From: a virus
Virus record (IMG/VR): IMGVR_UViG_3300008012_000023
Span: 28,982 to 92,981 of that record
Length of the DNA: 64,000 bases
Strand: one strand, 5' to 3'
The notes beneath the pieces were generated by a model. The model had not been told where the DNA came from and did no database searches. It worked only from the letters and a program-made list of their open reading frames with translations. A program made the position numbers and the translations under genes. Shown in pieces: positions 5,880-59,874 of this stretch (positions within the stretch are counted from its first letter, which is position 1; each line of letters starts with the position of its first letter).

Positions 5880-6539
5880 CTATTCCGTAAATGTTGTCAA
5901 ACTTTGTATTCTTATTGTGTAATCTATCTGTATCAATCTGTTCAATGATTTCTGCACCGGATGGAATATCACGTGTGTCAACAATTTGTTTGTTGTGCCA
6001 TTTTCCGTTCCTTCCCAACTCTTCAAACCCAGTTCGTCAAATACATAGTCGCCATTGAAATTTGTCGTGTTATCAAATGCCGCTTGTCCTGTTGGTTCTC
6101 CATAATCCAAAGTACAGGTTACAACAATGTCTGTATATTTGTTGCCGGCTGTGTGCCTCACTTCCATTTTGTTACGTGAGGTATCTTTATTTGTTGCCGA
6201 GTTATCATCAATTACTTTGTAATATGATTGATTATATAAAGTTGCGTTTGTTCCTGTAGAGTTTGGTGTGAGGTATGTTATTATACCTGTGGGATCAACA
6301 GTTGTGCCTCCATTTCCAAAAGCCATTTCGTGAATAAATCCTGTTGATTTATTGGCCAGGCTGTTTGCTAACGCTGTACTCATGTTTTCGTAATGAATAG
6401 CGTTCCTTTTATCTACCAGTACCTCTCCCGACTCAGGATCCCAAATTTTAATGTGTCCCTGCATCATGACTCCGTTTTCTTCTCTCATCGAATCTTTTGA
6501 ATCTTTTTGTTTTTCGTTGTTATCTGACTTTTCTTGCAT
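5880..6539 (-). CDS. Virion structural protein downstream of the giant baseplate gene, 219 aa
   Basis: I place the start at ATG 6539 (MQEKSDNNEKQKD), not the longer frame from 6563. The late-promoter-like AATAAATA at 6547-6554 would otherwise lie inside the coding sequence, and from 6539 the spacing to it is 7 nt, matching other late genes here. After a charged N-terminal ~30 residues comes GHIKIWDPESGEVLVDKRNAIHYENMS, then ALANSLANKSTGFIHEMAFGNGG, and a C-terminal VIFHPVQKSLNRLIQIDYTIRI. This layout is familiar from small structural proteins of marine T4-like phages. Its position (after gp6 and the giant protein) matches the gp8-gp10 region of T4, but I see no motif proving which. Probable baseplate or fibre-connector protein. 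Confidence 0.7.
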   Translation of the reverse strand: MQEKSDNNEKQKDSKDSMREENGVMMQGHIKIWDPESGEVLVDKRNAIHYENMSTALANSLANKSTGFIHEMAFGNGGTTVDPTGIITYLTPNSTGTNATLYNQSYYKVIDDNSATNKDTSRNKMEVRHTAGNKYTDIVVTCTLDYGEPTGQAAFDNTTNFNGDYVFDELGLKSWEGTENGTTNKLLTHVIFHPVQKSLNRLIQIDYTIRIQSLTTFTE

Positions 6540-6546
6540 CTCGTTG

Positions 6547-6554
6547 TATTTATT
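6547..6554 (-). promoter_or_regulatory. Late promoter motif AATAAATA, nearly leaderless start
   Basis: The minus strand carries AATAAATA (one mismatch to TATAAATA), followed by 7 nt and the ATG at 6539. If the start site follows T4 rules (about 6 nt after the last A), the leader is about 2 nt. No Shine-Dalgarno is visible. It lies inside the 3' end of the giant gene. Confidence 0.6.
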
Positions 6555-29341: not shown

Positions 29342-30280
29342 ATGAAAAAAGTAAACTATTTGAACAATCGAGACCTGATGCTCGAAATCCACAGGAGCAA
29401 GAACACCTACTGTTCATACGTCGGAGAAGGCGACGACCAATACGATATTATCTTGACCGATGTGAAAAAAATTAATCAGCCAAACATCGCCAAAGCCAGA
29501 AAAGCACGTGCCAAAAGAATGACGCAACAGGCATGGGAAGAAGCCAAGTCTCAAGGCATCAAGAGAGCAAAAATGAGCGACTACGAAGTTTCTCCCAGAA
29601 AAATAGACAAGACTGATCTAATTTTTAGGGTGATGTCTTTTGATCACATTCCGGTCGATTCCGAAAGGAAGAAAAATCCAAAAACACGTGCGGACCATCA
29701 CGTGAAGATAAACTTTCCTCCATTCCAACACTTCAAACTTGACAAAAAAGGAAAACCAAGATGTGTGGGGAAAAGTCACTGGGTGGGAGGAATGAGCAAC
29801 GGAGAATTTAAACACGACCACGGTAAAATTACTAACAAACTGGCATTGATGTTCATGAAACTGTGCGAAAGATATGGCACAAGGTCAAACTGGAGAGGTT
29901 ATACCTACAATGACGAAATGCAGTCACAAGCGTTGATGCAATTGAGCCAGATAGGACTACAATTCGATGAATCAAAATCTGAAAATCCATTTGCGTACTA
30001 CACCGCCGCAATCACAAATTCATTTACTCGAATACTGAATCTTGAAAAGAAAAATCAAAATATCAGAGACGACATAATGGAGATGAATAATTTGATGCCT
30101 AGTTTCACAAGACAGAATCAAAACGAAGTAGAGGCAAAAAAATTTGCCGGCAAGTACAGAAAAGAAAAGCAAGAAGTTGCGCCTGTGAAAACTTACACAA
30201 AAAAAGCAATTAAAGAGTTGAATAAGAGGTTAAAAAATACAGGTAAAATTTCTGCTAACGATTTCGAAGAGGTAAAATAA
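29342..30280 (+). CDS. 55: Late-transcription sigma factor gp55, 312 aa
   Basis: The C-terminal half matches gp55 of marine T4-like phages: KLALMFMKLCERYGTRSNWRGYTYNDEMQSQALMQLSQIGLQFDESKSENPFAYYTAAITNSFTRILNLEKKNQNIRDDI, the sigma region-2-like core that recognises the TATAAATA late promoter. T4 gp55 is only 185 aa. Here a basic N-terminal extension of ~140 residues (many Lys/Arg, KARKARAKRMTQQAWEEAKSQ, RKNPKTRADHHVKINFPPF) has no T4 counterpart that I know. An AACGGAGAAAT ribosome site precedes the ATG. First gene after a sigma70-like promoter, followed 3 nt later by gp47. It would turn on the late promoters annotated on both strands. Confidence 0.92.
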   Translation: MKKVNYLNNRDLMLEIHRSKNTYCSYVGEGDDQYDIILTDVKKINQPNIAKARKARAKRMTQQAWEEAKSQGIKRAKMSDYEVSPRKIDKTDLIFRVMSFDHIPVDSERKKNPKTRADHHVKINFPPFQHFKLDKKGKPRCVGKSHWVGGMSNGEFKHDHGKITNKLALMFMKLCERYGTRSNWRGYTYNDEMQSQALMQLSQIGLQFDESKSENPFAYYTAAITNSFTRILNLEKKNQNIRDDIMEMNNLMPSFTRQNQNEVEAKKFAGKYRKEKQEVAPVKTYTKKAIKELNKRLKNTGKISANDFEEVK

Positions 30281-37198: not shown

Positions 37199-38052
37199 CC
37201 GAAAAAATTTGAGTTATCGAAAGTTACGGGTACCTCGTATGTTGCAGGAGCACCTTTTTTGATCTGCTCTTCGTTGGCCTTGACAGTGAGAGGCTTGAGG
37301 TTTCCCTGGGTTCTCAGTTCTCCCAGTCCCTCCTGTATGTCATTTGTTATCTTGACATCGGCATTGTTGATGAATTCCCTGATCTGTTCCTTGTCCGTGA
37401 CGGCAGTTCCGTCCGGGGTGGTGATACTGACTATGCTGGATACCAACACATCAAAGTTTAACTCACTCAACTTTCTAAAACTCTCGGCAAATGTCTTGCT
37501 CTTCTGCGTTTCGTCCATTTGTGTCTGCGACACAGTGGCATAGATCTTCTGTTGCTCGAACGTTGCCAATTGATTTTTTGTCAACTCCTTGTAGGTAAGC
37601 GGAGACACCTTGACCTTGAATCCCGACTTGGTGGAAAATTCGTCCTTGATATCTATGTTCTTCAATGTTTCAAGCATCTGTGGTAGATTGACCGTGTGTA
37701 CCTGCATCTCGTTTGCCTTGGGCACGGGTGCCTCGATATCCATGGTCTCACCAAAAGTGGCTATCCTTATGGCCAGCAATATGGTGTCCAGGTCGTGATT
37801 CACTACCTGCCAGGCATCCTTGATGTTGGGCATACAACTCTGTATCACGTCCACCGTGCTCTGCCCGTTAAGGAGTGCGTCCGGTGTCTTGAAATTGAGT
37901 TCATCTTTGGCTGTCATTGGAAGCACAGGCAGTTCGCCTGTCTCTGTTTTTTCAAATCCCTTGTCGTCAAAATACTTGCCCTGTGACGGCAATGTGATGT
38001 ACACAGCCGGCTGTCTGTAATATTTGCTTAATGGTTTTGTGTTTTCTGTCAT
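37195..38052 (-). CDS. 26: Baseplate hub protein gp26-like, 285 aa
   Basis: The N-terminal block YRQPAVYITLPSQGKYF, ELPVLPMTAKDELNFKTPDALLNGQSTVDVIQSCMPNIKDAWQVVNHDLDTILLAIRIATFGETMDIE matches the protein annotated as hub subunit gp26 in marine T4-like phages. In those relatives a cysteine-rich segment (ECSNC type) follows, but here it is replaced by APVPKANEMQVHTVNLP without cysteines. The C-terminal half is helical with TTPDGTAVTDKEQIREFINN. Located between the gp51-like gene and, divergently, the tape measure gene, so hub genes are grouped. It has a perfect minus-strand late promoter at 38098. Confidence 0.75.
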   Translation of the reverse strand: MTENTKPLSKYYRQPAVYITLPSQGKYFDDKGFEKTETGELPVLPMTAKDELNFKTPDALLNGQSTVDVIQSCMPNIKDAWQVVNHDLDTILLAIRIATFGETMDIEAPVPKANEMQVHTVNLPQMLETLKNIDIKDEFSTKSGFKVKVSPLTYKELTKNQLATFEQQKIYATVSQTQMDETQKSKTFAESFRKLSELNFDVLVSSIVSITTPDGTAVTDKEQIREFINNADVKITNDIQEGLGELRTQGNLKPLTVKANEEQIKKGAPATYEVPVTFDNSNFFG

Positions 38053-38062
38053 AATTTTTGTC

Positions 38063-38070
38063 TATAAATA
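38063..38070 (+). promoter_or_regulatory. Late promoter TATAAATA for gp29 (rightward)
   Basis: Perfect TATAAATA on the plus strand, 65 nt before the ATG of the tape measure gene. It lies upstream of, and points toward, the opposing minus-strand late promoter at 38098, so the two transcripts cross. Confidence 0.75.
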
Positions 38071-38097
38071 TACACTAAAAGTATCAGTGTGTCTATA

Positions 38098-38105
38098 TAT
38101 TTATA
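38098..38105 (-). promoter_or_regulatory. Late promoter TATAAATA for gp26 (leftward)
   Basis: Perfect TATAAATA on the minus strand, 45 nt before ATG 38052. Together with the plus-strand element at 38063 it makes a face-to-face pair of late promoters in an 83-nt gap. Confidence 0.75.
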
Positions 38106-40339: not shown

Positions 40340-40368
40340 TTGATCTTTGCTCGTGAAAAAGGTATAAT
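40340..40368 (+). promoter_or_regulatory. Sigma70-like promoter before gene 20
   Basis: TTGATC at 40340-40345, 17 nt, TATAAT at 40363-40368. The ATG of gp20 follows only 7 nt later, so a transcript from here would be almost leaderless. No Shine-Dalgarno is visible. The -10 reads TATAATATA, which may also serve late transcription. Confidence 0.65.
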
Positions 40369-40375
40369 ATAACGT

Positions 40376-42112
40376 ATGGCTTGGAAAAAATATTTTAAAG
40401 ATGCTAATATGTCGCCCATAGCAGGTGACAGAAATCCCCAGTTCGCTAAAAGAAACTACAGTTCCTATCTACCGGACGTGTACACAGGACACCCTAACAG
40501 AATACAGAGGTATTTCCAGTACGACCAAATGGACACTGACTCAGAAGTAAATGCCGCTCTTGATATTTTGGCAGAATTCTGCACACAAACCAATCAAGAA
40601 AACGAAACACCATTTGACATCGTTTTCAAAGATGATGTTGTTGAATCGGAAGTCAAACTGTTGAAGAAAGCGTTACAGCAATGGACAAAAACAAATCACT
40701 TTCAGAAAAGAGCATTTAGAATTTTTAGAAATGTTTTGAAATACGGAGACTGTTTCTTTGTCAGAGATCCGGAAACAAACAAGTGGTTGTACATCGATGC
40801 CGCCAAGGTAGACAGAATTATTGTAAATGAATCAGACGGCAAAAAACCGGAACAATATATTGTAAGAGACATAAATCCAAACCTCGAAAGATTGAGTGCC
40901 ACACAGGTTACACCAAACCAGGTGTATGGTGGTACAGGCACAACATCCGGTCCTTATCACGCAAACTATTCGTCGGCTGGATACGGATACAACATCAATT
41001 CGGGTGCCGGCGCCGCCGGCGGACAAGGTGGAAGATTCTATCGTACCATGAATCAGTATGCGATCAACGCCGAACACGTGGTTCACATGAGTATGTCAGA
41101 TGGTCTAGACAACTTGTTTCCGTTTGGACAATCCATACTAGAACAGATTTTCAAAGTTTACAAACAAAAAGAATTATTGGAAGATGCCATAATCATCTAC
41201 AGGGTACAGAGAGCGCCAGAAAGAAGAGTGTTTTATATTGATGTGGGTAATATGCCAACACACTTGGCAATGCAATTCGTCGAGAGAGTGAAAAACGAAA
41301 TCAACCAAAGAAGAATTCCTTCAACATCGGGTGGTGTAAACTACGTGGACGCCACATATAACCCAATGAGTATCAACGAGGATTACTTCTTTCCACAAAC
41401 AGCAGAAGGTAGAGGATCTAAAGTTGACACACTGCCAGGCGGTACTAATCTAGGTGAGATTGATGACTTAAAATTTTTTACAAACAAACTTTTCAGAGGT
41501 TTAAGGATTCCGAGTTCTTACCTGCCCACTGGACCAGACGATTCGCAACAATCATTCAATGATGGAAGAGTAGGAACAGCATACATCCAAGAATTGAGAT
41601 TTAACAAATATTGCCAAAGATTACAGTCAATGGTAGCACCCATATTTGACGAAGAGTTTAAATTATGGATCAAAGCAAAAGGTTACACATTGGATAACTC
41701 TATGTTTGAAATCAAAATGAATCCGCCACAAAACTTCGCACAATACAGGCAGACAGAAATGGACCAGGCCAGAGTCCAGACATTCACTCAAGTGGCAGAA
41801 CTGCCATATATGAGTAAAAGATTTGCTCTAAAACGTTTCTTGGGATTATCTGAAGAGGAAATGGCAAGAAATGCGGAACTATGGGCACAAGAAAACAATG
41901 TGGCACAGAAACAACAGACAAAATCAACACAGATGAGATCGGCAGGAGTGAGTCAGTCGAACATTTCATCCGATCTAGATCAATTTGAAGAGCCTACAGC
42001 AGACGCCGAGGCACCCGAACCAGGTGGACCGGGAGCAACCCCCGGAGCGGCAGGACCGACCGGTAACACAGGCACACCAGGAACAACCCCCGGTGGCGGA
42101 GGCACAACGTAA
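40376..42112 (+). CDS. 20: Portal vertex protein gp20, 578 aa
   Basis: Conserved T4 portal text: NRIQRYFQYDQMDTDSEVNAALDILAEFCTQ near the N-terminus, FRIFRNVLKYGDCFFVRDPETNKWLYID, DGLDNLFPFGQSILEQIFKVYKQKELLEDAIIIYRVQRAPERRVFYIDVGNMP, and RGLRIPSSYLPTGPDD. T4 gp20 is 524 aa. Two odd parts: a Gly/Tyr-rich insertion at ~180-225 and a Gly/Pro/Thr collagen-like tail in the last ~45 residues. The portal forms the dodecameric DNA gate and starts head assembly. First gene of the head cassette. Confidence 0.95.
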   Translation: MAWKKYFKDANMSPIAGDRNPQFAKRNYSSYLPDVYTGHPNRIQRYFQYDQMDTDSEVNAALDILAEFCTQTNQENETPFDIVFKDDVVESEVKLLKKALQQWTKTNHFQKRAFRIFRNVLKYGDCFFVRDPETNKWLYIDAAKVDRIIVNESDGKKPEQYIVRDINPNLERLSATQVTPNQVYGGTGTTSGPYHANYSSAGYGYNINSGAGAAGGQGGRFYRTMNQYAINAEHVVHMSMSDGLDNLFPFGQSILEQIFKVYKQKELLEDAIIIYRVQRAPERRVFYIDVGNMPTHLAMQFVERVKNEINQRRIPSTSGGVNYVDATYNPMSINEDYFFPQTAEGRGSKVDTLPGGTNLGEIDDLKFFTNKLFRGLRIPSSYLPTGPDDSQQSFNDGRVGTAYIQELRFNKYCQRLQSMVAPIFDEEFKLWIKAKGYTLDNSMFEIKMNPPQNFAQYRQTEMDQARVQTFTQVAELPYMSKRFALKRFLGLSEEEMARNAELWAQENNVAQKQQTKSTQMRSAGVSQSNISSDLDQFEEPTADAEAPEPGGPGATPGAAGPTGNTGTPGTTPGGGGTT

Positions 42113-42118
42113 TAAATA
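42111..42118 (+). promoter_or_regulatory. Late promoter AATAAATA with exactly leaderless spacing
   Basis: AATAAATA overlapping the gp20 stop codon, followed by 5 nt and the ATG at 42124. By T4 late-promoter geometry the first transcribed base would be the A of the ATG. No ribosome-binding sequence precedes the ATG. Confidence 0.6.
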
Positions 42119-42123
42119 TTGTT

Positions 42124-42366
42124 ATGAAACTAAATGAAATGTTTGGATATGGTGAATCGGGTTTTGAACAACAGAAAAATTACGACGCTGACCAAGATAT
42201 TTCCATACTAGACTCAGAAGACACTAGAAAAACAAGGCTAACACTCAAAGACATCAACAAAATGAGATTGGCCTCGGAGCATCACGACCAAGAACAAAAG
42301 GCAGAATCCGAATTTGTTCAAAAGATGTATGCTCAACCACAGGCAGAAGATAATATATCTCTGTAA
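42124..42366 (+). CDS. Small prohead-core-position protein (gp67-like by place and size), 80 aa
   Basis: 80 aa, as T4 gp67 (Pip, 80 aa), and directly after gene 20 as in T4. Sequence: MKLNEMFGYGESGFEQQKNYD, DISILDSEDTRKTRLTLKDINKMRLASEHHDQEQKAESEFVQKMY. The LTLKDINKMR segment recurs in the short gene after gp20 of marine T4-like phages (memory). Acidic and helical. gp67 is an internal core peptide precursor cut by gp21. I cannot show sequence homology to T4 gp67. Stop and next start overlap (TAATG). Confidence 0.65.
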   Translation: MKLNEMFGYGESGFEQQKNYDADQDISILDSEDTRKTRLTLKDINKMRLASEHHDQEQKAESEFVQKMYAQPQAEDNISL

Positions 42367-45809: not shown

Positions 45810-46982
45810 ATGTCAGAACTATTCGAATCAAAATGGGGCGAAACTAAAGCCGCATTAACAGAAGGTTTAGAAGGCAACAAGAAAAAGACTATGGATGTAG
45901 TCTTAGAGAACACTAAGAAGTACTTGGCTGAGCAGGCAACTGCTGGTGCCACTTCTGCAGGTAACGTTGCTACTCTAAACAGGGTTATCCTACCAGTAAT
46001 CAGAAGGGTTATGCCAACTGTGATCGCTAACGAGATCGTAGGTGTACAACCAATGTCTGGTCCTGTAGGACAAATCCACACATTAAGAATAAGATATGCA
46101 GACACAGTTGCTTCAAACACAACTGCTGGTGAAGAAGCATTATCTCCGTTCAAAATTGCGAAAGCATACTCTGGTAACCAGAACAACACAACTCCTAAAG
46201 CGGCTTCTACAGCATCTTTAGAAGGTACTCCTGGTAAGAGATTATCGATCCAAATCTTGAAACAACCGGTTGAAGCGAAATCTAGAAAATTAAGTGCTAG
46301 ATGGACTTTCGAAGCGGCTCAAGATGCTCAAGCACAGCAAGGTATCGATGTAGAAGCAGAAATCATGGCGGCATTAGCTCAAGAGATCACTGCTGAGATC
46401 GACCAAGAGATCATTGGTTCATTAAGAACATTAGCCGGTTCGGCTTCTGAGACTTTTGACCAATCTGCTGTATCTGGTACAGCAACATTCGTTGGTGACG
46501 AACACGCGGCATTGGCTGTGTTAATCAACAGAGATGCAAACAAAATCGCAACAAGAAAAAGAAGAGGCGCTGGAAACTACGCTGTAGTATCTCCAACTGC
46601 TTTAACTATTCTTCAATCTGCTACAACTTCAGCATTTGCTAGATCAACTGAAGGTACTTTCGAAGCACCTACTAACACAAAATTTGTTGGTACGTTAAAC
46701 GCTTCTATGAGAGTATACGTTGACGCATATGCTTCAGACAACACAAGCATACTAGTTGGTTACAAAGGTGCTAGTGAGGCAGACGCTCCGGCGTTCTACT
46801 GCCCTTACATTCCTTTAATGTCATCAGGCGTTGTGTTAGATCCATCTACTTTCGAACCAGTAGTAGGCTTCTTAACAAGATACGGATACGTAGAGTTAAC
46901 AAACACTGCGTCTTCACTTGGTAACGCGGCTGACTACGTTGGATTAGTAGGTGTTAACAGCACAAACTTAAAATTCAAGTAA
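45810..46982 (+). CDS. 23: Major capsid protein gp23, 390 aa
   Basis: Recognisable T4-family capsid text: NTKKYLAEQATAGATSAGNVATLNRVILPVIRRVMPTVIANEIVGVQPMSGPVGQIHTLRIRYAD and a C-terminal SSGVVLDPSTFEPVVGFLTRYGYVELTN. T4 gp23 is 521 aa, and shorter forms are usual in marine relatives. A gp21-type site L-A-E (residues 39-41) predicts a mature protein starting at Gln42. Codons are biased to A/T-ending forms compared with neighbours, as in a very highly expressed gene. AAAGGGGAAAC ribosome site. Followed by a strong terminator. Confidence 0.96.
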   Translation: MSELFESKWGETKAALTEGLEGNKKKTMDVVLENTKKYLAEQATAGATSAGNVATLNRVILPVIRRVMPTVIANEIVGVQPMSGPVGQIHTLRIRYADTVASNTTAGEEALSPFKIAKAYSGNQNNTTPKAASTASLEGTPGKRLSIQILKQPVEAKSRKLSARWTFEAAQDAQAQQGIDVEAEIMAALAQEITAEIDQEIIGSLRTLAGSASETFDQSAVSGTATFVGDEHAALAVLINRDANKIATRKRRGAGNYAVVSPTALTILQSATTSAFARSTEGTFEAPTNTKFVGTLNASMRVYVDAYASDNTSILVGYKGASEADAPAFYCPYIPLMSSGVVLDPSTFEPVVGFLTRYGYVELTNTASSLGNAADYVGLVGVNSTNLKFK

Positions 46983-47001: not shown

Positions 47002-47030
47002 AAAGGGCGGCTTCGGTCGCCCTTTTTTTT
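47002..47030 (+). terminator. UUCG-loop terminator after gene 23
   Basis: Arms 47002-47011 and 47016-47025 (10 bp, one G-U) close a TTCG tetraloop, then eight T. Identical in stem and loop to the terminator at 61025. Confidence 0.95.
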
Positions 47031-47057
47031 GACTTCTTTTCCGCTATAATATAAAAT
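47029..47057 (+). promoter_or_regulatory. Sigma70-like promoter for the sulfotransferase gene
   Basis: TTGACT at 47029-47034, 17 nt, TAAAAT at 47052-47057. Another possible -10 (TATAAT at 47045) is too close. The -35 overlaps the T-tract of the preceding terminator. The ATG follows 6 nt after the -10, so the leader would be near zero. Confidence 0.5.
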
Positions 47058-47063
47058 AGCAGT

Positions 47064-47777
47064 ATGGAATACTGTTTTCATCACATACCAAAGACGGCCG
47101 GATCTTCACTGCAACTTAGATTGGCACACAGAGAACACGCAGGTCAACTGCCAAAAGGAAGCACCATGGTAGTGTATCCTCTATTCGGCGACATGAGATT
47201 TTACAGGGTGTCTGAGGATTCCGGATTTGATCCCAACCAACCGATCAAAGAGGCATTTTTAAGAACACACAAACAGCCAAGGACAGAAGGCAATGCCTCT
47301 ATCGTGTGTGGACATTACACCACATCCGCCCAGCCGGGAACCCACTACACTTGGTTAAGAGAACCACTGGCGAGAGACATCAGTCATTTCAACTATGACT
47401 GCAATTACGGTCACGAACTTTCAAAAGATTTCACTGAACACCTGAGCCAGATGGCAGGAAATTTCATGGTGCTTTGGTTATGGGGCAAATACATGAGCAA
47501 TGACGTCAATGCCCCCATCCAAGAAAAATATGAGGGCGTGAGACAATGCCTGAAAACAAAATTCGCCAAGGTTTTTGATTCAGATAGGTTTGAAGAATCC
47601 TGGACTGAATTGTCTGCCATACTGAAAGTGGACACAGAACCAAGACTCAATTCCAACGAAGGAGGATCTAGTTATAAAAAAGTCATAACAAAAAAAGATC
47701 TTGATGAAAAATTTATCTCATGGCACAAGTCATACAATCAATATGATTATCTGTTGTATAAAGAATTTTGTTTGTAG
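47064..47777 (+). CDS. Sulfotransferase family protein, 237 aa
   Basis: PAPS-binding motifs of Golgi-type carbohydrate sulfotransferases: 5'-phosphosulfate loop HHIPKTAGSSL (residues 6-16) and 3'-phosphate site LREPLARDISHF (98-109; Arg99, Arg104, Ser107). Length and C-terminal ESWTELSAIL...R(L)N fit PF03567/sulfotransfer_2. It would transfer sulfate from PAPS to a hydroxyl of a glycan or similar acceptor. It stands alone between the head cassette terminator and a membrane protein, with its own sigma70-like promoter. Unusual cargo for a phage. Acceptor unknown. Confidence 0.85.
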   Translation: MEYCFHHIPKTAGSSLQLRLAHREHAGQLPKGSTMVVYPLFGDMRFYRVSEDSGFDPNQPIKEAFLRTHKQPRTEGNASIVCGHYTTSAQPGTHYTWLREPLARDISHFNYDCNYGHELSKDFTEHLSQMAGNFMVLWLWGKYMSNDVNAPIQEKYEGVRQCLKTKFAKVFDSDRFEESWTELSAILKVDTEPRLNSNEGGSSYKKVITKKDLDEKFISWHKSYNQYDYLLYKEFCL

Positions 47778-48155: not shown

Positions 48156-48200
48156 CGGAGGGCGGTTGAATAATTTTTTCTATCGCTCTCCGTTGTTTAA
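48156..48200 (+). terminator. Terminator after the two-TM gene
   Basis: CGGAGGGCG (48156-48164) pairs with CGCTCTCCG (48184-48192), 9 bp with one G-U, and a T-rich loop, followed by TTGTTT. The tail doubles as a late-like promoter for the next gene. Confidence 0.75.
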
Positions 48201-48203
48201 ATA
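48196..48203 (+). promoter_or_regulatory. Late-like TTTAAATA with leaderless spacing
   Basis: TTTAAATA (one mismatch), then 5 nt and the GTG start at 48209, the same geometry as at 42111. No Shine-Dalgarno is visible. Confidence 0.5.
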
Positions 48204-48208
48204 TCTTT

Positions 48209-48853
48209 GTGAAATATCTCTTGTCATCAGGATGCAGTTTTAGTATTCCCAGACCTCATTTGGGTATCCATACCTGTGTAGGAAAGGAAATTGCCAATTA
48301 CAAGCAACTGCAACATTTAAACATAGCAGAACCCAGTTCCGGTAACACTAGGATAATCGCCAATACAAAAATTTTTTATGAAAAGTATCCAGAACGCAAA
48401 AAAGATACGTTCGCCCTTGTACAATTTAGTTACGGTGGTAGACTCGACTATATCAAGAAATCAGACAACAACAATCTGAAAATGAATACCGTCAACATTG
48501 TACGAGAACATCTATCCACTTCCAAGATTTTTACAGATGCTGACCTTGTGGAATGGACGGCATTCAACTTTTATAACTCTGTGTTGGATATGCAGAACTA
48601 CCTAAAACAGAATGACATACCTTATTATTTTTACAACGGAATGCAGAGTGTTGTTAGAAAACCTAAATCCTATCTTAATAACATAATTGATGCGATAGAC
48701 CAAAATTATTTTTTCAATTTACATGATCAAGACACTGTGCATTACAAATGGTGTGAAGATCGTGACTTCCTAATACCCAACGACCTGCATCCCAACAATG
48801 ATGGCGTACAACAGTATGCCAAATTACTCCAGGATAAAATCAAACACATATAG
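48209..48853 (+). CDS. SGNH/GDSL hydrolase-like protein, 214 aa
   Basis: GTG start. Block I is SSGCSFS (nucleophile candidate Ser10 in GCSFS), block V is NDLHPNNDG with Asp192 and His194, and the middle has GNTRIIANTK (block III-like Gly/Asn). This is the usual plan of phage SGNH-type proteins, which act as esterases or acetylhydrolases on glycans or as modules of structural proteins. It lies in a group of accessory genes between the head cassette and the fibre cluster. Substrate unknown. Confidence 0.75.
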   Translation: MKYLLSSGCSFSIPRPHLGIHTCVGKEIANYKQLQHLNIAEPSSGNTRIIANTKIFYEKYPERKKDTFALVQFSYGGRLDYIKKSDNNNLKMNTVNIVREHLSTSKIFTDADLVEWTAFNFYNSVLDMQNYLKQNDIPYYFYNGMQSVVRKPKSYLNNIIDAIDQNYFFNLHDQDTVHYKWCEDRDFLIPNDLHPNNDGVQQYAKLLQDKIKHI

Positions 48854-48861
48854 TATAAATA
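48854..48861 (+). promoter_or_regulatory. Late promoter TATAAATA
   Basis: Perfect consensus just after the SGNH gene stop and 102 nt before the next ATG (48964). The leader it would make is rich in hairpins, including one that covers the ribosome site. Confidence 0.75.
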
Positions 48862-48881
48862 CCAACAGTTCAAACGTGCTT

Positions 48882-48956
48882 CGACACAGTGTCGGAGACT
48901 TATGCGGAAACAAACCGCGTACCCAGGAGAACTGGGATTGGACTCCTAAGAAGGAG
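48882..48956 (+). promoter_or_regulatory. Structured leader with sequestered ribosome-binding site
   Basis: Four stems in 75 nt: CGACAC/GTGTCG (48882, 48889), GCGG/CCGC (48904, 48915), CCCAG/CTGGG (48922, 48932), and CTCCT/AGGAG (48943, 48952). The last AGGAG is the Shine-Dalgarno. A second AGGAG at 48925 can pair with the same CTCCT, so two exclusive folds exist. Confidence 0.5.
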
Positions 48957-48963
48957 AAAACAA

Positions 48964-49377
48964 ATGGGAAGACCGATCAAAAAATCAAGAATGTTATCTG
49001 ATTTCAATCCAGGATCAACTGCAACACTGGCTGTAACAACTTACAGAACTGGTGATTCAAACGTGACTGGTACAGGTTCATACATCGTGTCTCAGAGAAG
49101 TTCAAGAAGTTTCAAAATTCACTTGAACGATTCTTCTGAAACAGTAATGAAACTGGTTGCCAAAGCAACACTTACAGATAACGACACATTCAACGTTAAA
49201 GTCATACTTGACGACTCGACTGTGGCATACGTGGAGAAGTTCTACAACGGCACTATTCACTATGTTCAGTCAGACGGTACGACTACAGGAACGGTACCTT
49301 ACACGCTACAAACATCTGAGTCCGCGGACGAAGGTCAAGTTAGTAACAAAGGAAACATTGACATTAGAACTCACTAA
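48964..49377 (+). CDS. Small virion structural protein, 137 aa
   Basis: I start at ATG 48964 (MGRPIKKSRMLSDFNPGSTATL), directly after AAGGAG. The longer frame from GTG 48889 lies within the hairpin leader. The product is a basic short N-terminus followed by beta-rich sequence (VTTYRTGDSNVTGTGSYIVSQRSSRSFKIHLND, AYVEKFYNGTIHYV, DEGQVSNKGNIDIRTH). Similar small proteins follow the capsid genes in marine T4-like phages. Its role could be capsid decoration or fibre base. No motif decides this. Confidence 0.65.
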   Translation: MGRPIKKSRMLSDFNPGSTATLAVTTYRTGDSNVTGTGSYIVSQRSSRSFKIHLNDSSETVMKLVAKATLTDNDTFNVKVILDDSTVAYVEKFYNGTIHYVQSDGTTTGTVPYTLQTSESADEGQVSNKGNIDIRTH

Positions 49378-49427: not shown

Positions 49428-49435
49428 CATAAATA
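49428..49435 (+). promoter_or_regulatory. Late promoter CATAAATA, nearly leaderless
   Basis: CATAAATA (one mismatch), 6 nt, then ATG 49442. No Shine-Dalgarno. Predicted leader of about 1 nt. Confidence 0.6.
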
Positions 49436-49441
49436 ACACAA

Positions 49442-50308
49442 ATGGCAAAGACTCTCAGAACATCAGGTGATTACACAATCAAGACCGGCACAGGATTTAC
49501 TGGTGACAACTCGGTAATTTTAGATTCAAAGTTCACAAGAGTCAAGGGCGACCTAATAGTAGACGGCACTGAGGTAACTGTAAACACCACAAATATCACA
49601 GTCGAAGATCAATTCATGGAATTGAACAGAAACAACTCCACAGCGGGTATAGAAGATTCTGGAATTGTATTCAATCAGGGCACGGCGGACCACGCGGTTC
49701 TCTACTATGATGCCAGTTCAAACGAATTCAGGATAGGAACGACACCAACCGTAGATATTGCGGACGGATCAACTATCAAGACAGAGATACAGGACGGCGC
49801 CTTCACTTTGGCAAATATCAAAGTTGCAACAACACCATCAGATTCTAATCACGCCGCATCAAAGAGTTATGTTGACTCACAGGTTTCAGGCGGAGGATTT
49901 GCTATAGGATTCAGAGGAGATGATTCTGCTGTTGTAGATGTTGCTTCAGGAAACAGTGTTTTAATAGCAGGTGGTTCAAATATTTCAACAGCGGCAACCG
50001 AATCAGATACGGTGACAATAACTTTGGATAGAGATCTAAACGGGATAGACACAATTTCAACCGATAGATCAAATCAAGATTTAACATTAACAGCAAACGG
50101 AACAGGATCGGTCGTGATCGAGGATGTATTGACATTCTCGGGCGCCGCTTCAACACCAACAGCCACAACAGTAACCAAATTATACAACAAAACAGCGGCA
50201 GGTGGCGGCACAGGATTATACTTCATTAACTCAAACATCAGCTCTGGTTCAGAGGGAGAACTGATAAGTAAAAAGAAAGCAACTGCTTTGGCAATTGCGT
50301 TAGGATAA
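49442..50308 (+). CDS. Fibre-type structural protein, 288 aa
   Basis: N-terminal RTSGDYTIKTGTGFTGDNSVILDSKFTRVKGDLIVDGTEVTVNTTNITVEDQFMELNRN, the shared fibre module also present at 1-1325, 51964, 57640 and 59980. Then RIGTTPTVDIADGS, HAASKSYVDSQVSGGGF (a common fibre linker of the type ATKKYVD), and a beta-rich end ELISKKKATALAIALG. Opens a run of three close plus-strand structural genes (3-nt and 2-nt gaps). Confidence 0.8.
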   Translation: MAKTLRTSGDYTIKTGTGFTGDNSVILDSKFTRVKGDLIVDGTEVTVNTTNITVEDQFMELNRNNSTAGIEDSGIVFNQGTADHAVLYYDASSNEFRIGTTPTVDIADGSTIKTEIQDGAFTLANIKVATTPSDSNHAASKSYVDSQVSGGGFAIGFRGDDSAVVDVASGNSVLIAGGSNISTAATESDTVTITLDRDLNGIDTISTDRSNQDLTLTANGTGSVVIEDVLTFSGAASTPTATTVTKLYNKTAAGGGTGLYFINSNISSGSEGELISKKKATALAIALG

Positions 50309-50628: not shown

Positions 50629-51054
50629 ATGGGCAGGCTTTTGAAAAACAGAGAGCTAGACCACGGAGCTCTTGCAGTCAGCGTACCGCCGGTGACTTCT
50701 GATCAGAGACCATCGGGCATCAATGGGCAATTGATCTACAATACACAGACAGGCACTCTACAAGCCTACGACAATGGTTGGTTCAATATTTCAACTGCCA
50801 ACTCTGCTCCGGCAACAATCACACAAGACAACCTAACAGGCGACGGTTCAACTGTGGCTTTCACGATGAGTCTATCGGTTACGGATCAACAGGACGTTTT
50901 GGTTTTCGTTGGCGGTGTATATCAAATACCGGGCACGAACTATTCTGTGTCTGGAACAACAATAACATTTGGTTCTGCTCCACCGGCAGACAACTCAATA
51001 GACAACTCACACCTTATCACTATACTTCACGGTTTTGATTCAATTGGCGCTTAA
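50629..51054 (+). CDS. Fibre-type structural protein with GDGST module, 141 aa
   Basis: Two recognisable pieces. The first is DQRPSGINGQLIYNTQTGTLQAYDNGWFN, a QRP..G..RYN..T module as in the larger fibres. The second is LTGDGSTVAFTMSLSVTDQQDVLVFVGGVYQIPGTNYSVSGTTITFGSAPP, the GDGST module that ends the genes at 55635 and 57640 and recurs in the giant protein. It ends HLITILHGFDSIGA. A minimal fibre protein made of two exchangeable modules. Its stop overlaps that of the convergent gene by 4 nt. Confidence 0.78.
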   Translation: MGRLLKNRELDHGALAVSVPPVTSDQRPSGINGQLIYNTQTGTLQAYDNGWFNISTANSAPATITQDNLTGDGSTVAFTMSLSVTDQQDVLVFVGGVYQIPGTNYSVSGTTITFGSAPPADNSIDNSHLITILHGFDSIGA

Positions 51055-51899
51055 TTGATGTGTCCGAATGATCTCCAAGCACCCGGCTGACCGCCTTTGA
51101 TGCAGATCCAACCCAACACTTCGCCTATGTCTGGTTCTGAATTCCAAACTATAGATCCCTTGGTCCATGTGCCCGTTGTTGGTATGCCGGAAGCGGAAGA
51201 AAAAATCCTATTTTGAAATGCGATGTTGCCAGCGACCTCTAGGTCGTGATCGGGGTTTTGTATACCAACTCCTAATCGACCTTTAACATTTACATCTTTT
51301 TCAAATGATACCTTGCCGTTTGTTGCAACTACAATTCTTTTGGTATCATCGGTTGATATGGCAAACGGTCGTGCTTCGTGTGTGCCTACAAATCCTGTAG
51401 CATCATCACTGCCGATAACGATCTCGACTCCTTCGGCATCGACAGCAAATGTTTTAGATGGTACTGTGGTGTTGATTCCCACTCTTCCATCCGCTACATA
51501 TAAAGTGTCTTTGACTTGTAAATTTTCTAACACACCAACTTTGGTCAGAGAACTTTCTTTGACACTCTTGCCCAGTTTGGTTCTCCATACAACTTCATTG
51601 CCATCAATTCTCAGTGCTTCTTTGACATCCAACACAGGCACTTGAGCTCGATTATATTGTAGAGTTTGGCAATTTATCTTGCCTTGAATAAAAACATCAT
51701 TGTTGATATTTGTTACGTCGTCTGCGATTTCTAATATGTTGTGTGTTGCTGAATCTTTGATACCGGTGCTGGAAAAATTTGTGATTGTGCCCCCGTTGAT
51801 CACGTCTCCAGAGATGGAATCTTTTTTAAAATCTATGTCAGACACCTTGACAGATTTAGCGGTGATTTTTTGTTGGATGTTGATAGGTTTGAGTGCCAT
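51051..51899 (-). CDS. Minus-strand fibre-type structural protein, 282 aa
   Basis: I start at ATG 51899 (MALKPINIQQKITAKSVKVSDID). The longer frame passes through a late promoter at 51908. Contains INNDVFIQGKINCQTL, LQVKDTLYVADGRVGINTTVPSKTFAVDAEGVEIVIGSDD, VSFEKDVNVKGRLGVGIQNPDHDLEVAGNIAFQN, the repeated beta-strand text of fibre shafts, and a C-terminal TGTWTKGSIVWNSEPDIGEVLGWICIKGGQPGAWRSFGHIN, a small capping domain. It is the only minus-strand gene inside this stretch, with its own promoter. Confidence 0.78.
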   Translation of the reverse strand: MALKPINIQQKITAKSVKVSDIDFKKDSISGDVINGGTITNFSSTGIKDSATHNILEIADDVTNINNDVFIQGKINCQTLQYNRAQVPVLDVKEALRIDGNEVVWRTKLGKSVKESSLTKVGVLENLQVKDTLYVADGRVGINTTVPSKTFAVDAEGVEIVIGSDDATGFVGTHEARPFAISTDDTKRIVVATNGKVSFEKDVNVKGRLGVGIQNPDHDLEVAGNIAFQNRIFSSASGIPTTGTWTKGSIVWNSEPDIGEVLGWICIKGGQPGAWRSFGHIN

Positions 51900-51907
51900 A
51901 ATAAGAG

Positions 51908-51915
51908 TATTTATT
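51908..51915 (-). promoter_or_regulatory. Late promoter AATAAATA, nearly leaderless (leftward)
   Basis: AATAAATA on the minus strand, 8 nt before ATG 51899. Predicted leader of about 3 nt. Confidence 0.6.
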
Positions 51916-51963: not shown

Positions 51964-54900
51964 ATGGCATTTAATAAAATTGGTGGAGATCTATTAGAAT
52001 CTAATCTGTTGAGAGCAACAGATATAGCCTTCCAAACGGATTTACTATACATAGATGTAGACAACAATCGGGTCGGTATCAAAACAAATTCGCCGGGCAA
52101 TTTCGCACTTGATGTCAACGGAGCAGTAAGAGTACAAAACGATTTGACTGTTGTGGGAGACCTTATTGTAGAAGGCGAAACCACACAGTTGGACACACAA
52201 AATTTAGAAGTGGAAGACAATATCATTGTCTTGAACAAAAATAACTCAGCGGCAACAGATGCCGGCATAATGATCAACAGAGGAGACGCCCTCGACGACG
52301 CTGTCTTCTATTGGGACGAAACGGTAGATAAATTCCGGTTAGGCACGACTCCGCAAGACGGATCAACTGTCACAGATTTTTCTAACGTCACATTGGCAAA
52401 ACTACAGATAGGTGAGCCAGTTGCAGACGCGGATGCAACAACAAAAAAATATGTTGACGATCAAATTTCTTCTGTGTCATCAAGCGGTGTTACAGGTGAC
52501 AACGTCGAACTCCGTTTACCCGATGATTCAACGTTTGGTGATGGTGCTTATCTAGGACTTACCTCTACAACGTCGGTTACACAGGCAATCGACGATTTAA
52601 ACGAGACCATGGACAATATCAGGGCAGGAACATATTTGAAATCTGTTTCGTTTGTCGCTGACCAAACATCTATCAGTTTGAACGACACAGTCACCCTAAC
52701 AATCACTACCACACCGACAGCAGGAGCAAACACTAGATACACAATCACGTGGGGAGACGGCGACGTTACAACGGCAACATCGGATTCAACACCAAGTCAC
52801 ACCTACGCAGAAAATTCGGGATCACCGTACACAGTCACAGTTAAAGCATTTGAAAACGATGCGGCAGTAACCGACTCGTCGGGATCTTTTGCTACATCAA
52901 CAAGGACAAATTATATTACAGTGGCTACAGCAGAACCTGTTGTAAACTTTTTCATGTACTCGGCCGCATCGGGCGGATCACCTATAACTTCCGCCGACAA
53001 CGGGGCAACAGTTTATTTGGAAAACACAACCACAAACACAAACGGGGCCACAGTTACCTATGAAGTGGACTGGGGAGATACAACCACGAGCACAATCGCC
53101 TCTGATTCAGCGGCGGGAGGGGTATCTGGTTCTAGATTATCTCATACCTATAACAACTCAGCGGCAGATGATGGTTCAAGTATAGGTACAGGGAGCGGAG
53201 ACACAAGATACACAATCACTTTGAAACTTCTCACTCACTCGACAGCAGACCCGGCCGTGATACCTGCCACTGAAAATAAAAATTTTGATGTGTACAGTGA
53301 TCACACTGTGGAATATTCTGTCACTGACTCTACTATTAGAGGAGTAAATGAGGAAAGCACTTCGGGATTTCCAGTCACATTCACGAACGACACAGCAACA
53401 AATCCAGGACCACAATCGACATTTTCGTCAAACATTTACACCTGGAATTTTGGAGAAGGTGATGCCAATACCAACGTCAATGTTGGATCAGGAGCATCGG
53501 GTGACACAGGAAATACAATCGCAAATACATTTAATTTGAGTTCAGGACAGCAATCCGGTGGCACGACACAGACATACACAACCAGTTTAAGTTTGGCTAA
53601 CGGACACTCCAATTCACCTTTCACATATAACATGAACATTATCGTTGAACCGGATGTCAGAGCAAATATTGCCGCGACTGCTGTGACAGTTTCAACCGGA
53701 TCTGGTGATAACCAATACACATTGTATGACACAACAGACCTGGACAGCAACAACAGAGCACTTGCTAGATTCACAAACACATCACAGAACGCCGACGACT
53801 ATGATTATGACTACTTTGATGATTCATCTGACATTGTAAACATAGTGGAAGACGGAGCATCCGCGGGAACTATAGCCGCCACGCTTGACAAAAATTTCAC
53901 AGGAACAAGTAATGGTGCGTTTACAACGAGATTCAGAGCACATGGTACTCCAGATACTATAGAACAAGACGACGAAGAAACCATCACGTGGACAATGAAG
54001 GCAGTGCCGGCGGCACCCGCCGACCTGTCAACTAAATCATTAACTTTGAGTGATTCGGCTCAGGGCACTTCGCCAAAATTATGTGCAGGATTTGACGACA
54101 ACACATCATCATTCGCCACGTTGACTGCGGGTGATTCCTTGAATACAACAACTGCCAGAAGGTATACATCGGGAACAATTGACACAAACACCGTGACCAA
54201 TTTTTACAACGGCGCCACAGGCACACTGTCAGCGGCAATCAATGCCTCAGCGGATGGATCAAAGGCATTCACCACAGCAGAAAACGAAACAGGCACATTC
54301 ACAAGTCTTGTCGTGACATCCAACGTGGATTATGACACGGTAGTAGCCACATATCCTCAAAGACTGTATCTTGTTGCCTCGGCAAGAATTACAAAAGCAT
54401 TGTCGGGATACACAGTTGGCGTAAATGCTCAGAGACTTGAGCACACAACAACCGGAAACACAAATCTAGTTCATGTTGTTAGGGATGACATAACCGCAAC
54501 ACCTACCACTACAATAGGTACTGTGACAGAAAATGTCGCGGGTACATACGAATATGTGTCGGGAATACCGTACTATGACACCAGTTCACCCAGTCTCACT
54601 GTGTCAGGCACCTCGGTTGCTAATTTTACTGGACAGGCCTATGCAGACATTGTTGATCCGCACGAAATTGATCCCGGAACCAATCAGGAATCAACTTCTG
54701 GGTCAATTATTTCCAACTTAAATTTCACTTATGCCAATGTTGATGGCACAAGTTCATTCTTGACAGGCGGGATTCCTAATACAGACACAGGAGTAGCATC
54801 CGCTTATACCTTGGGCGACTTAACGGTACCCCTAACATCAAGTCCTATTATGAGTATCCAAACTATCAAAGCAAGGAGTAAAAATGCTAATGGTACAGGA

Positions 54901-57639: not shown

Positions 57640-59874
57640 ATGGCAATAGGTAGAATATCAGGACAGATGTTGAAGTCTAACCTTTTAAGGTCGGGCACGG
57701 ATTTAGCATTCGAGACAACATTATTGGTCCTTGACGTAACAAATTCAAGAGTGGGTATTGGTACAGCCAGCCCAGCAACAACTTTTCACGTATCGGCGAC
57801 TGACGCATTAAGATTACCAGCAGGTTCAGATGCACAAAGACCTGGTTCACCAGCAAACGGTGACATCAGATACAACTCAGACCAGGCAAGGATCGAAGGT
57901 TATTCCAACGGTGCTTGGGCCAACCTGGCATCGGGCACACTGATCAAGGATTTAGACGAGGACACATCAGTCGACGTTGAACCTTCATCGGATCTAGATG
58001 AAATACATTTCTCGGTAGCAGGCACAAAGCGAATGAAAATCGCGGGAGCAACTATCGAAGCAGGTGTCACAGGAATCTCGACAACAGCATCGACAATCAC
58101 AAGTTTGACCACTAACGGCGACATCACGTTCACTCCAAACGGAACTGGTAAAGTGATAGTGACAGATGGTACAACATTACAGACTAACACAGCAGACATC
58201 AATGGTGGTGCAATCGACGGTGTCACAATTGGTGCGGCTTCGGCGGCGACACACTTGAATGTAAGCGGTGGTACAGTTACAATTACTGACACTGGCGGCG
58301 ACGGTACTATGGACGGTGTGATCATCGGTGGTACAACAGCGGCGGCTGGTACTTTCACAACTGTAACTACAACAGGTAACGCTACCATTGGCGGTAACTT
58401 GACAGTACAGGGTACAACCACAACTATCGATTCAACAACATTAGTGGTTGAAGATCCACTTATCCAATTAGCCAAAAACAACTCAGGCGGAGCGGCGAAC
58501 ATATTTGACCAAGGTCTATTCTTCAACAGGGGATCGTTGGACAACGTTTCTTTCCTATGGGACGAATCAGCGGACCAATTCGTGTTCGCGGTGACATCAG
58601 CAGAGGATGGTACAACAGCAGGTAACGTTACTATTGACAGTTACGCAGATCTTCAGATCAAAAACTTAACCGCAAATGAAATTACTGTAGACGGACTATT
58701 ACTGTCTGATAACCAGATCGGCGGAACAAGATCGAACGACGACATCTTGATCGTGCCATCGGGTACAGGTTCAGTGAGAATTGACAAAGTCGACATCAAC
58801 GGTGGTGCCATCGATGGCGCTATCATAGGTGCCAATTCGGCGGCGGCTGGTACTTTCACTACATTAGAAACATCACAAACAATCACGGTAAATGCAGATT
58901 CACAAGCAGTAAGAATTGGTGCTGGTAATGACCTGCAGTTATCACATGACGGCACAAACTCTATCATAAGCAACGCAACTGGTGACTTACAGATCACTGG
59001 TGTCGCTGGATCAGAAGTTGTGTTCAACGAAGCAGGTGCCAACATCGACTTCAGAATAGAAGGTGACACAGACACTGATCTATTCGTAGTTGACGCATCA
59101 GCAGATGGTATTGGTATATCCACAGCGGCTGGTTCGGTCAGTTATGTATTAGATGCTTCTGGAAGCACTGACGCATTTAGATTACCATCAGGTAACACAT
59201 CGGCTAGACCTACAGCGGCAACTGGTATTATTAGATTCAACTCACAGACAGGAAAATACGAAGGTTGTACAGACGGATCAACTTACGTCGAGTTCGCAAC
59301 TGCGGGCGACACACCGATCTTCTCAAAAGTTTCTGCGACAGGTGATGGATCTACAACTACTTTCACTGGTTTCTTTGGCTCTGCTCCGGCAAACGCCAAC
59401 AACGTGTTCGTTTACATCGACAACGTTTACCAGGAACCAACTGAAAACTACACAGTATCATCAACAAACATCACGTTCACTAGTGCTCCTCACTCGGGTG
59501 CGAGAATATTCGCAATCTCAGGTGCTGACAACACAGCACTGGTATCGGGAGGAGTTGCGAGATCAGAGACAAGTTCGACCAACTTCACGTCGACTGCTAC
59601 TACACTCATGAGTTTCAATGCCACGACTTACAGATCAGCAGAAGCATTTATCACAACAACTGATAGTTCGAACGCTGAATACGAAGTGGCCAAAGCATTG
59701 ATTGTACACGACGGCTCAACTGCCTATGTCACAGTTTATGGTCAGACTTCTTCTACAGGATCAGACCTATCAACTTACTCAGCGACACTGTCAGGTGGCT
59801 CTGTGCTGTTACAGGGAGTATCAGCAGGCGGTCAACAGTCAGCCAAGGTACAGTACTCGTTATCAGGCGTATAA
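57640..59874 (+). CDS. Tail fibre-type structural protein, 744 aa
   Basis: N-terminal AIGRISGQMLKSNLLRSGTDLAFETTLLVLDVTNSRVGIGTASP, nearly the same as in the gene at 61153, suggesting the same attachment site on the virion. Modules follow: LPAGSDAQRPGSPANGDIRYN; a repeated DINGGAIDGVTIGAASAATHL type; LTVQGTTTTIDSTTLVVEDPLIQLAKNNSG; RIGAGNDLQLSHDGTNSIISN; LPSGNTSARPTAATGIIRFNSQTGKYEG; GDGSTTTFTGFFGSAPANANNVFVYIDNVYQEP. The last ~100 residues (ATTLMSFNATTYRSAEAFITTTDSSNAEYEVAKALIVHDGSTAYVTVYG) are one copy of the unit that is tandemly repeated in the next fibre gene. Ended by a terminator. Confidence 0.85.
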   Translation: MAIGRISGQMLKSNLLRSGTDLAFETTLLVLDVTNSRVGIGTASPATTFHVSATDALRLPAGSDAQRPGSPANGDIRYNSDQARIEGYSNGAWANLASGTLIKDLDEDTSVDVEPSSDLDEIHFSVAGTKRMKIAGATIEAGVTGISTTASTITSLTTNGDITFTPNGTGKVIVTDGTTLQTNTADINGGAIDGVTIGAASAATHLNVSGGTVTITDTGGDGTMDGVIIGGTTAAAGTFTTVTTTGNATIGGNLTVQGTTTTIDSTTLVVEDPLIQLAKNNSGGAANIFDQGLFFNRGSLDNVSFLWDESADQFVFAVTSAEDGTTAGNVTIDSYADLQIKNLTANEITVDGLLLSDNQIGGTRSNDDILIVPSGTGSVRIDKVDINGGAIDGAIIGANSAAAGTFTTLETSQTITVNADSQAVRIGAGNDLQLSHDGTNSIISNATGDLQITGVAGSEVVFNEAGANIDFRIEGDTDTDLFVVDASADGIGISTAAGSVSYVLDASGSTDAFRLPSGNTSARPTAATGIIRFNSQTGKYEGCTDGSTYVEFATAGDTPIFSKVSATGDGSTTTFTGFFGSAPANANNVFVYIDNVYQEPTENYTVSSTNITFTSAPHSGARIFAISGADNTALVSGGVARSETSSTNFTSTATTLMSFNATTYRSAEAFITTTDSSNAEYEVAKALIVHDGSTAYVTVYGQTSSTGSDLSTYSATLSGGSVLLQGVSAGGQQSAKVQYSLSGV

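Follow-up and report, generated by a model that had tools for sequence, protein, structure and literature searches.

The window analysed here, a 64,000-nucleotide stretch covering bases 28,982–92,981 of a 92,981-base IMG/VR virus record, belongs to a 93-kb contig of a phage of the T4 superfamily and holds T4-superfamily head genes for the portal, prohead protease and major capsid protein. The closest major capsid protein from a cultured phage is that of Sinorhizobium phage Phosso (73%); a search of the phage collection for nucleotide relatives of the head region returned none. At several genes a box of the T4 late-promoter type lies only a few nucleotides ahead of the start codon. These sites, with the other promoters and genes to which we refer below, are as follows (spacing is the number of nucleotides between the final A of a box and the start codon; SD, Shine–Dalgarno sequence):

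42111–42118, plus strand: late box AATAAATA with a 5-nt spacer to the ATG at 42124, without SD; +1 is predicted to fall on the A of that ATG
42124–42366, plus strand: gene for 80 aa, immediately behind that of the portal (PHROG 13986, of unknown function)
49428–49435, plus strand: late box CATAAATA with a 6-nt spacer to the ATG at 49442, without SD
49442–50308, plus strand: predicted leaderless gene for a virion structural protein (PHROG 6002, a weak match)
6547–6554, minus strand: late box AATAAATA with a 7-nt spacer to the ATG at 6539, without SD; position 6 after the box is A
5880–6539, minus strand: predicted leaderless gene (PHROG 11259, function unknown)
51908–51915, minus strand: late box AATAAATA with an 8-nt spacer to the ATG at 51899, without SD
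51051–51899, minus strand: predicted leaderless gene with a tail-fibre-like C-terminus; the open reading frame is listed from a TTG at 52277, the likely start being 51899
48196–48203, plus strand: variant box TTTAAATA, tentative, 5 nt before the GTG at 48209
48209–48853, plus strand: GTG-start gene, possibly leaderless, no PHROG match
40340–40368, plus strand: sigma70-type promoter TTGATC-17-TATAAT with a 7-nt spacer to the portal ATG at 40376
40376–42112, plus strand: portal protein gene, gp20 (PHROG 213, 1.7e-115)
47029–47057, plus strand: sigma70-type promoter TTGACT-17-TAAAAT with a 6-nt spacer to the ATG at 47064
29342–30280, plus strand: gp55-type late sigma factor gene (PHROG 12791, 1.3e-80; PHROG 234, 2.4e-23)
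45810–46982, plus strand: major capsid protein gene, the contrast class, with a strong SD at its start in orthologs
48854–48861, plus strand: late box TATAAATA, with +1 predicted at 48867 and a long leader behind it; an example, in the same phage, of a late gene that has a leader

Rechecking reproduced all five box-to-start distances given in the initial annotation (42111, 48196 and 49428, and 6547 and 51908 on the minus strand), and NATAAATA is present at all four main sites. The sigma70-like elements that it had placed at 40363 and 47052 are real, each with a -35 element at 17 bp and lying 7 and 6 nt, respectively, from the ATG, and the genes at 57640, 61153 and 34304 are SD-led, as it had stated. 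At 48196 the distance to the GTG is right, but the box is the variant TTTAAATA and stays tentative. It is weaker than the main boxes, yet plausible because the homologous gene in one relative (L263) has TTAAATA-5-ATG, and because two others (G001 and L003) have TTTAAATA-5/4-GTG at another gene. By synteny, the 42124–42366 gene would occupy the position of T4 gene 67; just upstream of the box at 49428–49435 lies a GGGGGAG...CTCCCCC hairpin.

We counted an ATAAATA as a close site when 4–8 nt separated it from an ATG at the head of a reading frame of 60 or more codons. Four of the 12 ATAAATA sites in the window do so, for a random-position probability of 0.016 (P(≥4) ~3e-5), the remaining boxes having longer leaders. 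TATAAATA is seen six times in the window against 1.9 expected in a shuffled window; the motif count is by itself modest evidence, and the argument turns on spacing. The comparison of motif-to-ATG spacing across related genomes that the initial annotation had proposed gave a very large excess: in the window's phage and 18 related contigs (19 contigs, 1.3 Mb, all told; contigs incomplete, genes called by a simple ORF method, orthologous sites not independent events), 57 of 248 ATAAATA copies lie 4–8 nt before an ORF ATG, against 3.6 expected. The distances are bimodal, with none at 0–3 nt, 57 at 4–8 nt, few at 9–13 nt and a broad mode at 14–32 nt; the modal close spacing is exactly 5 nt (26 sites), and the close class comprises 55 genes from 23 protein families. 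Among the 128 A/T-only 7-mers ATAAATA ranks first (23% against 1.3% pooled), and among its anagrams, leaving aside those that share most of the box, the highest value is 2.7%. Upstream of the box there is no strong per-position consensus, that is, no conserved -35, although the sample is small. Start codons 4–8 nt from an exact box are ATG in 57 cases, GTG in none and TTG in one, an AUG preference that is weakly informative, since non-AUG starts are rare at leadered boxes too.

The close class also differs in how its genes would be translated. An SD of at least 4 nt precedes 0 of its 55 genes, compared with 33% of the 76 genes having a box at 14–32 nt in the same 19 contigs, a share that becomes 70% when AGGA/AAGG is counted; the lack of an SD that the initial annotation had remarked on at the close boxes is thus borne out, both at the four main sites and in the relatives. 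In T4 the late box spans -13 to -6 (PMC2988020), which agrees with the late promoter adenines at -12, -9 and -8 (PMC7892883). Since the box ends at -6, +1 is the sixth nucleotide past its last A, and a 5-nt spacer puts the A of the AUG at +1, a geometry taken from T4 and assumed to hold for a divergent gp55. Polymerases favour a pyrimidine at -1 and a purine at +1. Behind 7–8 nt spacers, position 6 is a purine in 93% of cases and position 5 a pyrimidine in 87%; with 5-nt spacers, position 5 is a pyrimidine in 96%. Relative to strong-SD genes, pyrimidine at -1 is enriched with an odds ratio of 5.9 (P 5e-8). Intrinsic terminators finish 17–18 nt upstream of the ATG at four tail-tube-type genes of the clade, and 15–16 nt upstream at two genes of HTVC008M, a cultured phage of Pelagibacter, and therefore leave little room for a leader at these six genes.

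The sigma70 promoters of the same phages provide an internal comparison. In the related contigs, TTGACA-16/18-TANNNT promoters peak 6 nt from the ATG (11 sites, against a total of 4 at 4, 5 and 7 nt). Because the sigma70 -10 box ends at -7 (-12/-7 geometry), the spacing expected of a leaderless gene is 6 nt, one more than for the late box; if both promoter classes start transcription at the AUG, just such a one-nucleotide shift would be expected, as is seen. The sigma70 element of the portal gene is conserved in three relatives (G001, G016 and L263), and the gene has this sigma70-leaderless layout in the window's subclade but is SD-led in most other relatives. The gene at 47064 has a sigma70 promoter of leaderless type in the window and in L002, and a late-type box, TTTAAATA-5/4-GTG, in G001 and L003, so that here the promoter class has switched while the leaderless layout persisted. 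A host assignment from MAG-binned phage contigs was discarded: the sigma70-leaderless sites of G019 sit on apparent binned phage contigs, and G019's own family is without them.

Pelagibacter is an abundant ocean bacterium, and in its phage HTVC008M nine boxes stand at exactly 5 nt and three at 7–8 nt; in the two annotated regions compared, its deposited gene starts agree with the predicted ones. Across 80 environmental relatives of this phage we find 63 sites at 5 nt and none at either 4 or 6 nt. The HTVC008M-like set comprises 70 genes from 15 families, with a pyrimidine at -1 in 70/70 and an SD in 1/70. Melnitz (Methylophilales) has three boxes at 5 nt, Mosig has several sites of the 5-nt class, and the class occurs also in some Phosso-like and more distant environmental contigs, among them a 453-kb Phosso-like contig (G054) with 16 box-5-ATG sites against 1 for the control. 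In T4, Phosso, Vibrio phage 2.275.O, S-PM2, 121Q, Syn9, P-TIM40 and S-SKS1 it is either missing or no commoner than background; close relatives of Syn9 have 0/85 in the class, and in T4 none of 65 boxes lies 4–8 nt before an ORF start. Relatives of T4 show a single recurrent internal coding match and three scattered single sites. We discounted 16 sites at 4 nt in T4-like phages, which are copies of a single orthologous site; it has the look of sequence inside a gene, and most copies carry a purine at -1.

Individual genes keep the arrangement over considerable divergence. Orthologs of the 42124 gene in about 40 contigs retain NTAAATA-4/5-ATG without SD at protein identities down to 32–50%, and close orthologs of the 49442 gene mostly have ATAAATA-6/7-ATG, with the hairpin side conserved. 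For the minus-strand gene starting at 6539 the box lies at 4–7 nt in four orthologs (G001, G002, G003 and G005), and in the Phosso ortholog it lies 23 nt upstream and is followed by AAGGAG; for the minus-strand gene starting at 51899, the G013 ortholog reads CTAAATA-8-ATG. As read from the sequences, then, box, spacing, lack of SD and initiator signature recur across independent genes and lineages. The close-class genes encode tail tube, head–tail adaptor, baseplate wedge, neck and other virion proteins, and the major capsid gene is SD-led among the orthologs listed; the coexistence of two translation modes suggested by the initial annotation holds to this extent, SD-led genes standing beside close-box genes.

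Could the boxes simply be ordinary late promoters crowded against start codons by genome compactness, with initiation by coupling or read-through and a spacing devoid of functional meaning? Some boxes do overlap or abut the upstream stop codon, as at 42111, where the 42124 gene directly follows the portal gene. Crowding, however, would yield neither a peak one nucleotide wide (63, 0 and 0 sites at 5, 4 and 6 nt) nor an empty 0–3 nt range; it leaves unexplained the pyrimidine at -1, the one-nucleotide offset of the sigma70 promoters and the terminators 15–18 nt upstream; and the genomes of T4 and Syn9 are compact yet without the class. We regard it as very improbable. We give equally little credence to the idea that the A/T-rich stretch is a translation element, such as an S1-binding site or start-site context, and not a promoter. 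A/U-rich leaders can aid SD-independent initiation, and the stretch occupies the usual place of an SD; but the same strand-specific 7-mer stands 14–32 nt upstream of SD genes, which is unexpected for such an element, the box is the known recognition sequence of gp55, which the phage encodes, and ATAAATA is the sole standout of the 128 A/T-only 7-mers besides overlapping and sigma70-like words.

These are, we believe with considerable confidence, gp55-type late promoters placed so that the mRNA starts at, or 1–3 nt before, the AUG, giving messages that lack an SD and are predicted to be leaderless. The initial annotation had proposed late promoters spaced for leaders of 0–3 nt, and box geometry and spacing both support this. 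In the mechanism that we propose, the box NATAAATA, at -13 to -6, stands 4–8 nt ahead of the start codon, with exactly 5 nt the commonest spacing, and host RNA polymerase with the phage gp55 sigma would initiate on, or 1–3 nt before, the A of the AUG. The resulting mRNAs, being without SD, would presumably be read by the known leaderless route, with a 70S ribosome and fMet-tRNA on the 5'-terminal AUG. By this route 70S ribosomes read leaderless mRNAs at a 5'-terminal AUG, with AUG the preferred start and with high IF3 inhibiting some of them (PMC9031893). The same phages have two further kinds of start: late promoters whose transcripts carry an SD leader, and promoters of the sigma70 type, many of them leaderless in geometry themselves. 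We infer the RNA 5' ends, the use of gp55 at the boxes, 70S translation and the host's tolerance of leaderless mRNA. In the window's subclade the spacing is often 6–8 nt rather than 5, so some leaders may be 1–3 nt long, or the start may shift; genes without an upstream terminator could be read also from longer transcripts.

Tolerance of leaderless mRNA by the host is the simpler assumption, and we favour it over a phage-imposed switch because the sigma70 promoters of the same phages also have leaderless geometry. A switch would entail ribosomes or initiation factors altered late in infection to the benefit of leaderless messages; the initial annotation had likewise raised altered ribosomes as a possibility for late messages. 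In favour of a switch, phiYS40 of Thermus is reported to raise IF2 and lower IF3, its middle and late mRNAs being leaderless (PMC3594737). IF3 is, moreover, encoded by the SD-only relatives Phosso, Vibrio 2.275.O and 121Q, and by Atu_ph07, and not by the window clade or the pelagiphages. The absence of phage IF3 as a permissive condition gave a clean pattern at first, which was then broken by G054, where the 16 box-5-ATG sites and IF3 occur together; whether a phage encodes IF3 does not tell the leaderless and the leadered phages apart. Phage S21 fared no better as a ribosome modifier: no S21 gene was found in the window's phage and its relatives (G000–G018), and S21 is present in leadered (Phosso, Vibrio 2.275.O) and leaderless (HTVC008M, Melnitz) phages alike. 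With no IF3 gene found in the window's phage or its relatives either, the clade offers nothing for the altered-ribosome proposal in these two genes. A late-only leaderless switch also sits badly with leaderless geometry at sigma70 promoters and with the coexistence of SD-led late genes, the major capsid gene being SD-led. We consider such a switch a most unlikely explanation. Among the jumbo T4-superfamily phages, IF3 (PF00707) is encoded by Phosso, Atu_ph07, Vibrio phage 2.275.O and 121Q, and by contigs G052–G054; Phosso and Vibrio 2.275.O have S21 in addition.

The arrangement can be set against several known systems. With T4 late promoters (gp55/gp33/gp45) it shares the box NATAAATA, the lack of a conserved -35, an encoded gp55 homolog and virion genes as targets, but T4 boxes lie mainly 14–32 nt upstream whereas the window clade has a distinct 5-nt class. 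PhiYS40 likewise has later-class messages without leaders (PMC3594737), a property predicted from sequence in the window clade; it differs in host phylum and phage lineage, and the window clade uses gp55-type promoters, its sigma70 promoters sharing the feature. Leaderless genes are also found in bacteria, with 171 leaderless starts in Sinorhizobium meliloti (PMC3616915), and TA-led bacterial leaderless genes start with AUG, have no SD and carry their -10 element some 12 bp ahead of the start codon (PMC3160421). These three properties are found in the window clade too, with the difference that the sigma70 Pribnow box ends at -7 and the phage late box at -6, making the spacing one nucleotide shorter. 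A survey of pelagimyophages reported that late-promoter prediction was unsuccessful (PMC7029224); HTVC008M and its relatives share the 5-nt geometry, and the lack of success in that survey may stem from the boxes lying no more than 12 nt upstream of the ATG. In the related CBB/GAP32 jumbo phages the same motif, ATAAATA, has been described upstream of structural genes (PMC5259590), and the part of that report considered here makes no claim as to spacing or leaderless messages; their relative 121Q shows no 5-nt peak. Leaderless late phage mRNA is itself already known, from phiYS40. The new part is the predicted leaderless promoter of gp55 type, of which a search of open-licence papers found no earlier report.

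The predicted leaderless layout, found at many late genes, points to an unusual, testable translation of virion genes in a large group of uncultured T4-related phages and in cultured phages of Pelagibacter. If our reading is correct, the best-studied phage late-transcription system has a widespread leader-free form, Pelagibacter phages included; gene finders and promoter predictors could adopt a box-5-ATG rule, which they now miss, and start codons could be corrected; and cultured phage–host pairs would allow direct measurement of the leaderless translation of essential virion genes. More speculatively, in several branches of the T4 superfamily, uncultured and marine, each late gene might be fixed in one of two translation modes: the virion parts made in few copies (neck, tail tube and baseplate) leaderless and the major capsid protein SD-led, with promoter-to-AUG spacing acting as a dose control suited to hosts with relaxed initiation such as Pelagibacter; we think this possible but doubtful.

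Several further features of late boxes in these phages deserve mention. Downstream of the box at 48854 is a freshwater-2 RNA (Rfam RF02980, 48880–48966, 76 bits), which makes up most of the predicted 97-nt leader and is followed by AAGGAG and the ATG at 48964. This late gene would carry a structured element in cis, and about 25 relatives keep the stretch 48854–48964 on the plus strand. Two TATAAATA boxes lie close together on opposite strands at 38063–38105 of the window, between the divergent genes at 38052 (minus) and 38136 (plus), with long leaders. Back-to-back late boxes at divergent gene pairs, both predicted leaderless, occur in G001 (45645 minus and 45689 plus) and G013 (21445 plus and 21401 minus), an arrangement conserved in these two contigs. 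Finally, the preferred box-to-ATG spacing differs between subclades, being 5–8 nt in the window's (G001, G000, G013 and G016) and mostly 4–5 nt in other relatives, which may reflect a different start-site geometry of gp55.
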